Below, piece by piece: positions 47,481 through 63,303 of a stretch of DNA of 64,000 bases. Positions within the stretch are counted from its first letter, which is position 1, and the number at the start of each line of letters is the position of its first letter. Origin of the DNA: Daphnia carinata (Eukaryota; Arthropoda; Branchiopoda; Diplostraca; Daphniidae); the NCBI RefSeq assembly GCF_022539665.2, contig NC_081331.1, forward strand, positions 2,080,501 to 2,144,500, given 5' to 3'. The notes under the pieces were generated by a model. That model was not told where the DNA came from and did no database searches. It saw only the letters and a list, made by a program, of their open reading frames with translations. The position numbers and the translations under genes were made by a program.

Positions 47481-49510
<2,030 letters not shown>

Positions 49511-50409
49511 TTTGATTGTTAAGTTGAAAAAATGGGGTAAATCAGGAATTAAGAAGGTCTTCGGACGCAGAATGGCCTAACAAGGATGCCGTTCCGTGGT
49601 GAAGTGGTGAAATGTACTCAAACAGTAACCAATAAGTAAATTCTGATATTCGGCTGGACGACTATGATTGGTCGAACTACAAAAGTAACACTGTCACTGA
49701 TTGGCTGTTTTTCATCAGTAGTTGTCCTTTTTCCTTTTGAGGAAAAACGTAGCGCGAACCTTTGTTTCAACACCGTGGGTGGAAGAACCTTCACCAGCGT
49801 TAAAATTTTGTAGCGGAAGTGCTTGGCTATGACTGACGGCGATATACGCTGGACGACAAGTGATTTTCATGAAAAAGCTTGAAAAAGCCAAAATAATTTT
49901 CAGGATTTTGAAAATTTTGCCCTAAAACTGATTCTGTTCATTATGATTCAAAGCCAGTAAAATTCAATTAATCAATTCAAATAGATTCAGAGTTGGGCGA
50001 AAAGCACGGACTTTGGGGGATCAATACTTCGATTTGCCAAGCACAGTTTTTGGAACCATGACAAATTGTTCTGAATAAAGTAATTAATTTAATGGCAATG
50101 CAGCTAACTAATTGTTCTGTTCTTTGCCTCTTCTGTCTTGCACATAAACACTATATGCTGTGATATATGCTATGTTTTTTTCCTAATTATGATTAAATAC
50201 GGAGTTTTAAATTATAATTGTCGAAATGGAAATACAATTTCCGAGAAATAAAAACAAAAATCGAAGGCCTGGCAACAGTGCACTAGTTCCCCTGGGTGCG
50301 CTAAGGTATCAGCGTCCTTTTCAATAGAAGGCTGAAAAGGATAAAAGGCCCGGCTAAACGTGCTGATAATTCAATTTGAAATTTCTATTTGAATAGAGAA
50401 GTTCACGAA
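49511..50409. promoter_or_regulatory. Divergent promoter region between alpha-tubulin and METTL6/snoRNA host
   Basis: Three CCAAT boxes (49629-49633 plus; 49667-49671 and 49700-49704 minus) lie close to the tubulin start. GGATAAAAGG at about 50338 is a TATA-like element for the METTL6/snoRNA transcript, 70 bp before its first ATG. No coding exon was seen. Confidence 0.5.
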
Positions 50410-51598
50410 ATGGCACAAGCTGGTAAGTTAATATCTCATTTAAATATCTCTAGCTTGTGTTTTAAACATTTTTGATATTGTGTGCACGATGATGGATTAG
50501 ATTTTTATGGATATGTTTAACTTAGATGTGCAGTTCTGCAAAATGAGGAATGTTTCACGTGTGCATCCGTCATGGAGAACATTGCCTCAAGTTCCCAGCG
50601 TGTTTTGTCAGAAGATGAAGAAAATAAGCTGAAGAAACAGGACCAGACTTTAGTTTCTGAATTTAAGAGTATGAAATTGGAAGCTGAAGCCAAGAGAAAT
50701 TGGGATCTGTTCTACAAGCGGAATGATACAAGATTTTTCCGAGACAGACATTGGACGACTCGGGAGTTCGAACAATTGCTTGGAACTGGTGGCGAGGGAA
50801 AGAAAATTTTATTGGAAGTAGGTTGTGGAGTTGGGAATTTCCTATTTCCATTATTGGAGGAAAATGAAGACCTTTTCGTCTACGGATGCGATTTTTCACC
50901 GCGAGCTGTGGATTTTGTCAGGCGTGACTCGAGGTTCAACGCAGAACGGATGAATGTCTTCGTTAGTGATATAACCAAAGACAGGTAATGCATTTGTTTT
51001 TTCTATTTTGGTCTCCTTTAGCTATTATGATGATAAAATCCTATCTTAATGACTATGCAGAAAATTGGCATTTAGTCTTTCGCCCCTATCTGATAAATTA
51101 TGGATAATGATTTTCTTTGTTAGTTTGCCTCCATACTAAATATCTTCTGCTTTCTAGTTTAAGGGATTTTGTTCCTGAGATGGTTGATGTAGTCAGCCTC
51201 ATCTTTGTCTTATCAGCCATACATCCAGACAAATTCCTCCAGGCACTTTGCTCAGTTGCTTCAGTCCTTCATCCTGGTGGTGCCCTAATATTTCGAGACT
51301 ATGGCCTTTATGATATGGCTCAGCTTCGATTTGGGAGAGGGAATAAAATAAGTGATAACTTCTACGTCAGGCAGGATGGTACCAGGTAATTTATCTCTTG
51401 ATTCATGTCTTACATAGACTATATGTATTTACTTTTTTCAGATCATACTTTTTCTCTGTGGAGTATTTAAAGCAGTTGGTGACTGAGGCTGGATTTGAGG
51501 TTTTCACATGTCATTATGTAAATAGGAGAACCATCAACAAGAAGGAAGGGGTTGATGAGCCCAGGGTCTTCGTTCAGGGGAAGTTCATTAAAAAATGA
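50410..51598 (+). CDS. METTL6: METTL6-type tRNA(Ser) 3-methylcytidine methyltransferase
   Basis: Four coding exons join in phase: 50410-50422, 50534-50984, 51158-51385 and 51442-51598 (282 aa; human METTL6 284). The core also starts at an internal ATG, 50572 (265 aa). The first 13-nt exon adds an in-frame N-terminus MAQAVLQNEECFTCASV, so its use is likely but not certain. Family blocks are LKKQDQTLVSEFKSMKLE, AKRNWDLFYKRND, FFRDRHWTTREFEQL and the SAM-binding LLEVGCGVGNFLFPLLEE. Further blocks are YGCDFSPRAVDFVR, VSLIFVLSAIHPDKF, FRDYGLYDMAQLRFG, FYVRQDGTRSYFF and NKKEGVDEPRVFVQGKF. The enzyme methylates C32 of tRNA-Ser with seryl-tRNA synthetase. The 50985-51157 intron carries a SNORD80-like element, and spliced snoRNA-bearing exons follow the stop codon by one base, so the gene looks merged with a snoRNA host. 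Confidence 0.9.
51020..51100 (+). ncRNA. SNORD80-like: Box C/D snoRNA, SNORD80-like (28S rRNA guide), in METTL6 intron
   Basis: C box ATGATGA (51027-51033) and D box CTGA (51090-51093) lie 56 nt apart. The D box is preceded by TTTAGTCTTTCGCCCCTAT (51071-51089). This is antisense to the very conserved 28S segment AUAGGGGCGAAAGACUAA and close to the SNORD80 guide I remember from vertebrates. The fifth base upstream of the D box pairs with a G, consistent with SNORD80 (28S Gm). The D box is 64 nt from the 3' splice site at 51157, a normal place for an intronic C/D snoRNA. Confidence 0.85.
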
Positions 51599-51630
51599 GG
51601 TGGGTGGGTATTTTTGCTACAACTATTTCT

Positions 51631-51702
51631 TTTTCTGATGATCCAAAATAATTTTCCCTGACATTCTGTGGAGGAAGCATGTATTAGCTCTAACTGAACA
51701 AT
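51631..51702 (+). ncRNA. SNORD44-like: Box C/D snoRNA, SNORD44-like (18S rRNA guide)
   Basis: C box TGATGA (51636-51641), D' box CTGA (51658-51661) and D box CTGA (51694-51697). The guide GCATGTATTAGCTCTA (51677-51692) is antisense to the universal 18S segment UAGAGCUAAUACAUGC. The base five upstream of the D box pairs with the A equivalent to human 18S A166, the known target of SNORD44 (U44). The sequence ATTAGCTCTAACTGA matches vertebrate U44 as I remember it. The D box lies 64 nt from the 3' splice site. Confidence 0.88.
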
Positions 51703-51836
51703 ACTGTTCAGTTTATACAACAGTGTTTCTTGCATTCTCTAAATTCTTGTTGTTTTTGTAGGTCTCACCGCGGCAGTGTTTCATTCGATTTTTTGAATTT
51801 TGAGGTAAACATACGCCTGAATTTTTATGAATTAAA

Positions 51837-51909
51837 AGCAAAATGATTATAATCTGCATAGGTCATCTGAATATTAGGAAGATATTTGCGTTCTGATTTC
51901 ATTCTTGCT
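51837..51909 (+). ncRNA. Candidate box C/D snoRNA, target not assigned
   Basis: C box-like ATGATTA (51843-51849, one mismatch), an internal CTGA (51867-51870, possible D') and D box CTGA (51893-51896). Flanking AGCAA (51837-51841) and TTGCT (51905-51909) can pair as a terminal stem. The D box is 67 nt from the 3' splice site, matching its sister elements. The guide before the D box, GATATTTGCGTT, was not matched to rRNA from memory. Confidence 0.55.
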
Positions 51910-52039
51910 AGGGCTTGACTTATAAAGCTGCTTCACTATCTCTAACGATGTCTTTCTTGTTAGGTTCGGCGACTTTGGAGTGGGGGTTCATCTTCTAAGA
52001 GTAAATATTTGCCTGTCTTTCTTGCGTTACGCAGTGTTG

Positions 52040-52108
52040 TTGAATGATGATTATTATAATCATCTGAAAACAAAGGAAGAATATAAATAATTTGCCGATC
52101 TGAGGCAC
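52040..52108 (+). ncRNA. Candidate box C/D snoRNA, target not assigned
   Basis: Perfect C box ATGATGA (52044-52050), D'-like CTGA (52064-52067) and D box CTGA (52100-52103), 68 nt from the 3' splice site. The guide before the D box, AATAATTTGCCGAT, has no target I can name. The segment GATGATTATTATAATCATC is also a near-perfect palindrome that could compete with the C/D fold. Confidence 0.55.
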
Positions 52109-52245
52109 AGAAAAACTTCCATTGTTTTGGTATATTTTGGATGTTGATGTAACCTCATCGTCTTATTGCAGGCGGTGTCGCAGGGGAGTTTCGTATTGTT
52201 ATAATGCAAGGTAAAACGCTTTTCACTCAGATCTTTTTTAAACTG

Positions 52246-52322
52246 TAAATGATGGAATCCATATTTGCTACTCTTGACTGTTTGAATGACGACAGACTAG
52301 ACCACCAATCACCTTCTGATGT
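52246..52322 (+). ncRNA. SNORD76-like: Box C/D snoRNA, SNORD76-like (28S rRNA guide)
   Basis: C box-like ATGATGG (52249-52255), D'-like TTGA (52274-52277), C' ATGACGA (52286-52292) and D box CTGA (52316-52319), 66 nt from the 3' splice site. ATATTTGCTACTCTTGA before and over D', and ACCACCAA before D, closely resemble vertebrate SNORD76. They are antisense to neighbouring parts of the 28S segment UUGGUGGUAGUAGCAAAUAU. Confidence 0.8.
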
Positions 52323-52431
52323 TGCAGTGTTTTAGTTTTTATTGTCGTTGTATTCTTTGACTGACTGTTGACTTATCTTCTACAGGTTTGGCGGAATTGT
52401 ATACTGAATGCTGAAAAACTTTACTTTGGTC

Positions 52432-52437
52432 AATAAA
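52432..52437 (+). terminator. Poly(A) signal of the snoRNA host/METTL6 unit
   Basis: An AATAAA in the last exon, which begins at 52386 after a clear TCTACAG acceptor. Confidence 0.6.
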
Positions 52438-52440
52438 AGT

Positions 52441-53180
52441 GTTAAAATGACGATTGATTTGTGTATTTTCATTTTCCGAAAATCTTATTATCAAGCACGT
52501 CTTGTTACACACGCAAAAGACGAAAAACCACAGATGCATTTGAAGAAAGATTAAAGGTTGCAATGAACGCCCACCACGATGTCTTCAATCGAGCGAAGGG
52601 GAATCGACATACTGGAATCTTAAGGCTACAATTTTCCATACTCGTTTTTTTACTAGTAGAAATTTGACACGAATTGTAAACTTCGAATGAAAAATAGTAT
52701 AGAGCCATAGGAAGCAAAATACAATAGCCAAGGTGGAAAACTTAATTTTATGCAGTAACGAATATGTGAATCGGTTAGGTCAGACAATTGTGAGGAGAGC
52801 GACGTCCGAGTGGTTCTCGCGAAAAAAGGAGAAAAAAGAAGTGTCTATATAACTCTGCCACAGTCCGCCAATGCCGTCGTAACGATTCGCATTAATATAA
52901 TGCAGAGAAATATTGACCGTAACACATATGAAGAGACAGAACTCGGTAAGGATTGTTGTATACTTTTCCAAGACGTAGTTACTCGGACGCGGGGGGAGGG
53001 GGTGAGAGAGGGAAAAACAACATACAATTGACGTTCGGTGACAGAAGAGTGTACGAATTGTCAAAATGATCCAACACGGATCAAGTCTGTGAAATTTGGG
53101 AGAAGAAGAAACAAGCAAAACGCAGCACTTCGTTGAAAAACAACCACTTAAATGTCTTTGTTTGTGAACTGCACAAAACG
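52441..53180. other. Convergent 3' region between snoRNA host and Roquin
   Basis: This should contain the Roquin 3' UTR. It carries no family-like reading frame. A short G-rich tract (52988-53010) is present. Confidence 0.5.
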
Positions 53181-55922
53181 TCATTCTTGTTCCTCCAATT
53201 CATGCTGCAGACGAAGTTCGAGCTCCCTCATACCGTTTGCTATTCCCGTATCCTCATCGTCACCGGTGGTAATTGCCAAAGGGTCACTGAAACCGTTAAA
53301 GAATTTAACATCCCAGTCGAGTGTTGCTTTGCCGTGGACTGGCGTCGTCACGTTGCGACGTTTCCTTTGCGTCAATCTCAACTGGCGTTCCTTCTCGCGG
53401 ATGTTCTCTTCGATCAAGTGAAGCTCCCGTGATAATCGTTGGCGGCCTTCTGTCATGCATCCGATCGAAGCTTCGCGTGTCGCCATCTTGAGTTCGTCAA
53501 TCTGTTGCTTGATTAATTCCAGTTCGTATTTCATCCGCTCAGATTCCGCAAGGAAATCGGGCACGGGTTCCACCGCGGGTGGCACCGAGTCGCCTTTAGA
53601 CTCCTGGCCATCACCGTCTTCTTCGTCTTGTCCCTCATTCCAATCATCCAAGTCACGACCGGTGGAAATCAGTGGGGTTCGCTTCATGGGTGTTGACGTG
53701 AGCGAATGGCCAAAGGAGGACGCCGCCTGGATCGGGTTGGACGGTCGTGGGATGATCCTTGAAAGACGCGATATTGGGCCGTATTTGCTACAAATGGGTG
53801 CGCCAAATGGGATGAAATCATCATCAAACAATCCTTCTGCCCTATTATAACCAGTGGCGCCTTGAGCCGAGGCTGCTGCTGCTGCTGCTGCAGGTCGTCC
53901 ATTCCAAATGGAACTATTCTGACTGTTGGTAGTGCCAATCTTTTCCAGTTGGTCTAAAATTTCTTGCTTACGACTCTGCAAGACGACCAAACTTTGGCTG
54001 GCCAGCGATGGAATCAAGCGAGCTGTTTCGATGGGTCGACTGGGATAGTCGGCCATAGGGGCCTGCATTCCGTATTCAGGTTGCGGCGGAAGAGAAGGCG
54101 CTCCGTAGAGATGCGGTCCAGCGCCATAAGTCGGAGGGGGCGGAGTTGGATAGGCACTGGCTCCGTACTGTCCGCGTGAACGGTAAGGAGCGTGAGTGGC
54201 AGTGTAAGGCGGGCCGCTGTAATTGGGACGTCGGCTCAACATGGCTGTGCCGTCCGCTGGAGCTGGGTTATAATAAAAACTGGTTGGGTCCGTCTCGGTA
54301 ATCATGGCGATTCCGGCTGCGTCGACGCCAACTACCAGATTCTCCTGAGAACCGAGACTTCCTTCGCCTGTTCCATTCCTGAGTTTGCCAGAATTCTTCC
54401 GGTGTCGTGACCTGTACCTGTCCAGCTCCTCCTCCGAGTGGGCAAATGTACAGTTGGCTCCGCGAGGGCAGCCGCCGCGAAGTAAATCGCGACACAAGCT
54501 CGTCTTGTACTTGATGCCATGTGATCCGTGGGCAGCTTGCTCCGATTGTCGACCATTGGATCTACTTCCTCCTCCGTGTGACGAAACAAAATCAATGAGA
54601 CCTCGGACGGCCATTCGAGCCGCTTCTAAGGCTCCATCGCATTCTGACCAGCTAGGGAGAGCGGCATCCGGACTGGGGTCGAGGGCAGCAAGTAGTTCCA
54701 GACTAGGTCGCAAATTGGACAGATTGTGCGGATCGCCCGTTCGTTGCAGAGCGATGACAAGCTCTTGCACCGATTGACCGAACGATTGTGGTGTTTGTAG
54801 TTTGTCGATGATACTCTGCATGTGCGATTTGTGGGCCGAATCGCCGTACAACAACGACGACCACTGGTCGGGGGCGATCCTCAGACCGGCCTCGGTAGCT
54901 ATTTGCACAATCTGGGCGTCGTGTTCGCGTCGTAGGGCGTCATAAGTCCTAAATTCATCTTTCAGTTGCATCAATGAAGAATCGCCTTCTCTTTTGGATA
55001 CTGAAAATAAATAAAAGAATTCTTTAAACATTGAACCAAGGTTTCATTTGAAGGTTTACCTTTGAAACATGAGGCACGATAGAGAAGCTGGACGACGTGG
55101 CCAATGCTCGTCTTGGAAGCTTGTGGAAAATGGGGTTCCAGTCGCTGAACAACAAACATGACGAGAACTTTACGTGATAAGGCCGATCCGTCTTCCAAGG
55201 CGAGCAGAACAAGTCGCAGCACCTCCTCTTGCATAGCCGGACCGAGAAACTGACAACCGCGAGCCCGGACAGCTGCCCAAAGGTTGGCAGAGAGTTGTTG
55301 CGGATTCTGGTGTTGAAGTATGAGCTCGGTGACAGTTCGTTCACCTAAAGAGCGAGCTGCCCGGACGGCCCTGGCCCGTCCTTCCGATTCGGCGAGTTGG
55401 CAAGTGACCAAAGTCACCAATTTGCGTTGCATGGGACGCGAGAGGAGAGGCACGCCTCCGCTAATTTTCAGGAAGAGAGCAAGCTCCTCGACGCAGCGTC
55501 GACTGGAACGGTACAACTGCCATTGTTCCTTGTCCAGGGAAGATAACAAAGTCGTCGTTGACTGTAATTCTTCTTCCATAGGCTGATCTTCTTCGTGATT
55601 ATCTTCATGGTGATCGCTGTTGTGGTGGACACTAGAAGGCGAGATCAGTTGTAACAGGGCTGTATTGACGGGCAAGTCTTCAGCTTCGATACTGACACTG
55701 CTTTGGTCAAATGGACATTGTCGACGATGCAGCTTTGCAAGGCATGTCTAGAACAGTGTTCAGGTTAAATATATAATTGCATAAACACATAACTAACAAA
55801 AATACCTTGCAGAGAGTGTGCCCGCATGCGAGGCTGATGGGTTGACGCTGGATGCGGTCAAATTCGTGTCGGCAGATGGGACAAGAAAGGAATTCAGTCC
55901 ACTGAGGAGCTTGAATGGGCAT
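53181..55922 (-). CDS. roq: Roquin (RC3H) mRNA-decay RING E3 protein
   Basis: Three exons join in phase (874 aa): 55922-55806, 55747-55060 and 55000-53181. The N-terminal RING is split by intron 1 ([36 protein letters not shown]). The HEPN and ROQ domains follow (about 90-400), with [37 protein letters not shown] and [15 protein letters not shown]. One CCCH zinc finger lies near residue 460 ([19 protein letters not shown]). A Pro/Tyr-rich linker and a charged C-terminal coiled coil ([15 protein letters not shown], then [19 protein letters not shown]) complete it. Roquin binds constitutive decay element stem-loops in mRNA 3' UTRs, recruits the CCR4-NOT deadenylase and acts in P-bodies and stress granules. 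Its RING is kept, so ligase activity is possible. Confidence 0.95.

Positions 55923-63303
<7,381 letters not shown>

Follow-up and report, generated by a model that had tools for sequence, protein, structure and literature searches.

Protein-coding host genes free their small nucleolar RNAs (snoRNAs) through splicing of the coding pre-mRNA (PMC11028025). In chicken, the gas5-like RNA is a non-protein-coding host with a TATA box and a 5' terminal oligopyrimidine (5'TOP) start, which carries U76 in intron 3, U77/80 in introns 4 and 5 and U44 in intron 7 (PMC2653536). In Drosophila, the variable 3' untranslated region (UTR) of mfl/Nop60b has introns with four DmSnR60 copies, each some 70 nt ahead of its 3' splice site, together with two copies of a small RNA described there as of unknown function, and the snoRNA part of this gene was formerly listed as the non-coding host dUhg 6 (PMC1821038). 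Differential nonsense-mediated decay (NMD) of snoRNA hosts and dual TCT/YR transcription starts have also been described (PMC6954239). Here, we describe the METTL6 locus of the water flea Daphnia carinata, which lies in a stretch of 64,000 nt (contig NC_081331.1, positions 2,080,501 to 2,144,500; referred to below as the window, whose numbering is used throughout). Five introns of this locus each hold a C/D snoRNA-like element, and we consider it probable that one RNA polymerase II gene gives rise to METTL6 and, in addition, to several C/D guide snoRNAs.

C/D elements in five introns of the METTL6 locus

The METTL6 reading frame extends from 50572 to 51598 in three coding exons and encodes 265 amino acids (aa). 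Its product shows 100% identity to a D. carinata database protein (P0001) listed as tRNA N(3)-methylcytidine methyltransferase METTL6-like, and a solved METTL6 chain matches it with an E-value of 2.3e-98, covering residues 9-264, as befits a full-length relationship. Methyltransferase domains were assigned to the product by Pfam, and the METTL6 identity proposed in the initial annotation is thereby established. Relatives from three other Daphnia species show 78-92% identity and terminate at the same place, which makes it most likely that the METTL6 protein truly ends at the stop codon 51596-51598.

The snoRNA-bearing introns, which lie on one strand and have GT-AG ends, and the elements inside them are the following.

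50985..51157, plus strand: coding intron (173 nt), element 1 inside
51027..51093, plus strand: element 1, snR60/SNORD80-type; C box ATGATGA from 51027, D box CTGA 51090-51093, guide 51072-51089
51600..51761, plus strand: first intron past the stop codon (162 nt), element 2 inside
51635..51697, plus strand: element 2, SNORD44-type; C box CTGATGA from 51635, D box CTGA 51694-51697, guide 51677-51692
51805..51963, plus strand: intron (159 nt), element 3 inside
51843..51896, plus strand: element 3, snR60 D' guide (SNORD77 site); C box ATGATTA from 51843, D' box CTGA 51867, D box CTGA 51893-51896
52001..52171, plus strand: intron (171 nt), element 4 inside
52044..52103, plus strand: element 4, C/D-like; C box ATGATGA from 52044, D box CTGA 52100-52103
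52211..52385, plus strand: intron (175 nt), element 5 inside
52249..52319, plus strand: element 5, SNORD24/SNORD76-type; C box ATGATGG from 52249, D'-like TTGA 52274, D box CTGA 52316-52319

The coordinates agree with the initial annotation, which had placed one C/D element in each of five same-strand introns of 159-175 nt, the first in a coding intron and the other four past the METTL6 stop. It had also given 64-68 nt as the distance between D box and 3' splice site, and the measured distance from the end of the D box to the end of the intron is 64, 64, 67, 68 and 66 nt for elements 1-5. All five introns passed a position test that called for a C box (RUGAUGA) deviating in no more than one base, for a perfect CTGA whose end lies 60-70 nt before the end of the intron, and for the two boxes to be at snoRNA spacing. 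Dinucleotide shuffles of introns 1-5 passed the same test 17, 5, 20, 25 and 45 times, respectively, per 2000 each, as did 44 of the 7039 AG-ending 165-mers in the window, true introns included; these rates are not a strict probability, since the motif and the ranges were picked after the finding was seen. Shuffles of a single intron that pass up to 45 times in 2000 would suit a reading in which the elements are chance motifs in AT-rich introns, but the five introns pass jointly. In an Rfam scan at lowered threshold, moreover, the two best matches of the window by E-value were elements 5 and 1.

Guide pairing with the rRNA of Daphnia

The guides were compared with the rRNA of the same genome, taken from a ribosomal DNA (rDNA) unit on contig C53 that provides the complete 18S, the 5.8S and the first 2189 nt of the 28S up to the contig end. 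The predicted 2'-O-methylation site is the fifth base before the D or D' box. Human SNORD sequences and human site numbers also entered the comparison. The only rDNA found is at two loci on C53, L007 and L008: one unit that the contig end cuts within the 28S, and another copy of the 28S that runs into N. Two stretches of the 28S 3' half were searched for and not found in the assembly, and one was not found in viral contigs either.

Element 1 has an 18-nt guide directly before its D box that pairs with 28S 1130-1147 without G-U pairs and predicts methylation of G1134, the SNORD80 site; its Rfam match, snosnR60_Z15 (RF00309), scores 34.3 bits against a cut-off of 41. The guide of element 2, one base off the D box, pairs over 16 nt with 18S 158-173, again without G-U pairs, and predicts A161, the SNORD44 site. 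Rfam offered only SNORD28 for this element (21.2 bits), a name that was dropped as the guide suits the SNORD44 site in the 18S. In element 3 the guide precedes the D' box (51856-51866) and pairs over 11 nt, including one G-U, with 28S 1039-1049, which predicts C1043; snosnR60_Z15 scores 25.8 bits here (E-value 0.41). The guide of element 5 (52262-52272) lies one base before the TTGA taken as D' box and pairs over 11 nt with 28S 1739-1749, predicting A1742, the SNORD76 site. Rfam places element 5 in SNORD24 (RF00069) with 38.1 bits, below the cut-off of 41, and an E-value of 4.5e-4. A SNORD76-type assignment was preferred, because the D' guide is positioned for A1742 and the ACCACCAA on the D side falls 7 nt short of the D box. 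For element 4, Rfam suggests snR61 at 22.4 bits, a name that we leave open. The guide of this element, taken together with the D box, is present at a single place in the genome when one mismatch is allowed, and an arthropod 28S stretch may pair with this guide.

Thus, four of the five elements show rRNA complementarity of at least 10 nt adjoining a D or D' box (18, 16, 11 and 11 nt for elements 1, 2, 3 and 5). The SNORD80, SNORD44 and SNORD76 assignments of the initial annotation hold on the rRNA of Daphnia itself, with 18, 16 and 11 nt, and element 3 adds a fourth GAS5-type guide, for the SNORD77 site. As background, 469 other CTGA sites on both strands of the window were considered, of which 14 reach a run of at least 11 nt and the longest has 14 nt. 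With 18 and 16 nt against that maximum, elements 1 and 2 therefore need no support beyond their pairing, which is not true of elements 3 and 5, given the 14 sites that reach at least 11 nt. The occurrence of such runs would suit chance motifs, but the 18- and 16-nt pairings are unmatched in the window and the elements have copies at other loci of the genome that keep their order, so chance is a highly improbable source of the five elements. The longest background run belongs to a CTGA at 53672 on the minus strand, in the region of a Roquin-like gene (see below), and this 14-nt rRNA match is probably fortuitous.

Elements 1 and 3 touch on the history of the snR60 family. In chicken, an snR60-family snoRNA guides both 28S A1469 and G1560, which are 91 nt apart, and the same table names yeast snR60 for both of these sites; separation of the guiding function has been described, mammalian U77 being derived from U80 (PMC2653536). 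The Daphnia sites C1043 and G1134 are likewise 91 nt apart. The Rfam alignments and the guide scan assign the D guide alone to element 1 and the D' guide alone to element 3, and on these predictions the two guides of snR60 are divided between two elements in Daphnia. Both rDNA copies read have C at 28S 1043, unlike the A of chicken, and at position -5 the guide of element 3 carries a G in place of the U of the Rfam consensus guide; the copy of this element at a second locus, on C2, has G too. This paired change of rRNA and guide at the SNORD77 site argues that element 3, or its C2 copy, is in use.

A probable single transcription unit and its alternatives

The exons of the locus and the remaining coding intron are arranged as follows.

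50317..50422, plus strand: predicted first exon; TCCTTTTC at 50315 (TCT/TOP-like), GATAAAAG at 50340 (TATA-like), donor GTAAGT after GCTG, putative start site
50526..50984, plus strand: METTL6 exon with start codon 50572-50574; 5' edge predicted, protein identical to P0001
51158..51385, plus strand: METTL6 exon, from protein identity to P0001
51386..51441, plus strand: METTL6 coding intron of 56 nt without snoRNA
51442..51599, plus strand: last METTL6 coding exon; stop TGA 51596-51598, donor follows at 51600
51762..51804, plus strand: predicted short 3' UTR exon (43 nt)
51964..52000, plus strand: predicted short 3' UTR exon (37 nt)
52172..52210, plus strand: predicted short 3' UTR exon (39 nt)
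52386..52450, plus strand: terminal exon with AATAAA at 52432 and a putative 3' end

In the reading that we favour, a single pre-mRNA would start near 50317-50372 and be polyadenylated near 52450. Splicing of the coding exons would free element 1, splicing of the four post-stop introns would free elements 2-5, and each small nucleolar ribonucleoprotein would assemble on an intron whose D box lies 64-68 nt ahead of the 3' splice site. The guides would direct 2'-O-methylation at 28S G1134, 18S A161, 28S C1043 and 28S A1742 (the SNORD80, 44, 77 and 76 sites). To 52450 the 3' UTR measures 184 nt spliced and 851 nt unspliced; the left-over mRNA would thus encode METTL6 with the 184-nt spliced 3' UTR and have junctions about 0, 43, 80 and 119 nt past the last coding exon. 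Where NMD follows such junctions, the output of METTL6 would be reduced relative to that of the snoRNAs.

The main rival of one unit is a pair of interleaved genes, in which the METTL6 mRNA ends early and a separate GAS5-like non-coding RNA uses the post-stop exons, either sharing the METTL6 promoter or starting within the gene. On the plus strand, the only AATAAA between the stop codon and 52700 is that at 52432, after the last snoRNA intron (another, at 51342, lies within the METTL6 coding sequence), so a shared 3' end is likely. Variant poly(A) hexamers do precede it (ATTAAA at 51831, TATAAA at 51921 and 52082, AGTAAA at 52000, AATATA at 52080), which makes an earlier METTL6 3' end possible, in favour of two genes and at the expense of one. 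The TATA-like and TOP-like patterns that were used have no match in 51380-51605. Element 1 does not fit with interleaved genes either, as its intron is coding and must be removed to make METTL6. Furthermore, the donor of the first post-stop snoRNA intron lies one base past the METTL6 stop, so the exon before that intron is the terminal coding exon of METTL6 itself.

At the 5' end, the TOP-like start TCCTTTTC at 50315 would suit a snoRNA host and hence a separate RNA. It is weak evidence because the motif is common, the TCT motif having been counted 141 times in 128 kb on both strands combined, too often for it to be counted in favour of a TOP start for METTL6. Exon 1 contains an upstream ATG (MAQA...; window 50410-50650); if exon 1 is joined to 50526, a 39-codon frame results that overlaps the METTL6 start out of frame. 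It is possible that this frame is a brake on translation, and an out-of-frame ATG also suits a transcript that is not meant for METTL6 translation. With apparent stand-alone hosts with TATA boxes in the same genome counted in their favour as well, interleaved genes have a modest chance, and one unit remains the most likely reading of the locus.

These apparent hosts lie on C2 and C6.

C2 locus L003 (G000:C2:5444000-5453900), about 6515-5010, minus strand: TATA box, TOP-like CTCTTCTTC, AATAAA near the end
C6 locus L011 (G000:C6), about 1087-2370: TATA box, host-like

On C2, a SNORD77-type element precedes a SNORD76-type one, just as element 3 precedes element 5 at METTL6, with 87% identity over 47 nt in the copy of element 5. 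The D boxes of this locus end 66 and 75 nt from the likely 3' splice site, chosen by eye among YAGs, and two further CTGA sites have 12- and 13-nt 18S guides (18S from 572 and from 329). On C6, the order is that of elements 1 and 2: a SNORD80-type element comes first, pairing over 19 nt with one G-U, and a SNORD44-type element second, pairing over 13 nt and with ATGA as its D box. The distance to likely 3' splice sites, likewise chosen by eye among YAGs, is 74 nt for the first and 63 nt for the second. The ATGA of the second is perhaps a weakened D box. In the unspliced sense strand of the C6 locus the sole ATG frame of at least 40 aa has 81 aa and runs through the SNORD80-type element. Significant similarity between the METTL6 locus and these loci is confined to the snoRNA elements. 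Both loci are probably stand-alone non-coding hosts, and by element type the METTL6 cluster unites the two halves of a GAS5-type block, SNORD80 with SNORD44 as on C6 and SNORD77 with SNORD76 as on C2.

The copies bear on a further alternative, in which elements 2-5 are a dead, mostly unspliced cluster within the 851 nt of the METTL6 3' UTR and the working copies are those on C2 and C6. Several observations lean this way or otherwise weigh against our interpretation, which was drawn from sequence throughout. Copies elsewhere cover four of the five elements (1, 2, 3 and 5), so the main source of these snoRNAs may lie outside METTL6. For element 4, no adequate target was found in the 18S, the 5.8S and 28S 1-2189. 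No Rfam match at gathering scores was obtained anywhere in the window, so the identity of the elements, all below the cut-offs, depends on the lower-threshold scan and the rRNA pairing. Minimum-energy folds gave no clear terminal stems for elements 1-5; the Rfam alignments show terminal pairs for elements 1 and 5, in the former along with mismatches. A run of 11 nt, as in element 3, is not unusual by itself at the background rate given above, the D-box-side guides of elements 3, 4 and 5 (9, 8 and 7 nt) are at background level, and the background test covers CTGA sites, with the TTGA D' box of element 5 outside its range. In addition, the [ACT]TGA sites at 51638 and 52368 have rRNA runs of 11 and 10 nt, presumably by chance.

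What speaks against relics is the condition of the elements at METTL6, which are as good as the copies or better where compared. Element 2 has a 16-nt guide and an exact CTGA, compared with 13 nt and ATGA on C6, and element 1 has 18 nt without G-U, compared with 19 nt with one G-U. Splice sites and D-box position are intact in all five introns. A dead cluster is therefore improbable, and a single unit with working guides stays the likelier reading.

The neighbouring genes of METTL6 are both on the minus strand. Upstream and divergent lies a tubulin gene (47878-49161), alpha-type by eye, and on the other side a convergent gene (53181-55925) encodes a protein with CCCH and RING-like parts that resembles Roquin (RC3H), by eye only.

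Comparison with known systems

If true, the arrangement suggests that the GAS5 snoRNA set predates vertebrates and stays together while its host changes, and it would bear on the purpose of GAS5-type hosts. It would also provide a natural case of a tRNA modifier and rRNA-modification guides on one transcript, in an animal amenable to culture and to editing. With its two guides on separate snoRNAs, and with one guide base and its rRNA partner both changed, snR60 would be a small and clean case of co-change between guide and target. A wider scenario, which we put forward tentatively and hold to be rather doubtful, is that an old animal GAS5-type block (SNORD80, 44, 77 and 76) was joined to METTL6 in Daphnia, that one unit sets the output of both the tRNA m3C methyltransferase and the rRNA guides, with post-stop splicing and NMD trading one product for the other, and that two partial non-coding copies persist.

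Among the papers listed on METTL6 with snoRNA or SNORD, no title describes METTL6 as a snoRNA host. Searches on Daphnia, on arthropod, crustacean or insect snoRNAs, on GAS5 and Drosophila hosts and on NMD of hosts gave no GAS5-type set in an arthropod by title, among the matches listed. The initial annotation had supposed that a coupling of a tRNA modifier with rRNA-modification guides in one transcription unit was undescribed. For an RNA modifier and modification guides at large this is not supported, as mfl/Nop60b is a precedent (PMC1821038). The kind of arrangement is already known from mfl; what seems new is the tRNA methyltransferase as partner, a GAS5-type set in an arthropod and its split over three loci.

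The GAS5 comparison made at the outset is partly supported: it suits the guide set, but the host has a coding gene, and on other contigs two further host-like loci copy four of the five elements. The SNORD80, 44, 77 and 76 sites are represented with one element per intron, which amounts to 4 of 10 GAS5 snoRNAs only, and the host exons contain an intact METTL6 where a GAS5 host is non-coding. In human, the corresponding SNORDs are hosted by GAS5. The locus resembles the chicken gas5-like host in having snoRNAs for the same rRNA sites, short exons and one snoRNA per intron, but the order of the snoRNAs differs and the METTL6 exons encode an intact protein (PMC2653536). The C2 and C6 loci have the same snoRNA types in the same order, with D boxes 63-75 nt before the likely 3' splice site; unlike the METTL6 locus, they have no METTL6 gene, show a TATA box at the putative start and contain one half of the set each, and the C2 locus has its two extra sites with 18S guides. 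Compared with protein-coding hosts in general, D. carinata has four of its five elements behind the stop codon.

The closest described system is mfl, which supports the reading as one unit, since it demonstrates that such an arrangement works in an arthropod. In both cases the gene of an arthropod RNA-modifying enzyme has tandem C/D snoRNAs in 3' UTR introns, one in each, and DmSnR60 belongs to the snoRNA family of element 1 (PMC1821038). In D. carinata, C/D elements in post-stop introns about 70 nt from the 3' splice site are seen at the level of sequence. The mfl product is an H/ACA pseudouridine synthase and itself a snoRNP protein, unlike the tRNA methyltransferase METTL6 (PMC1821038). While the transcripts and alternative poly(A) sites of mfl were demonstrated by experiment and those of METTL6 are predicted, the contents differ as well: mfl carries four copies of one C/D snoRNA and two copies of another small RNA, and METTL6 a varied GAS5-type set (PMC1821038).

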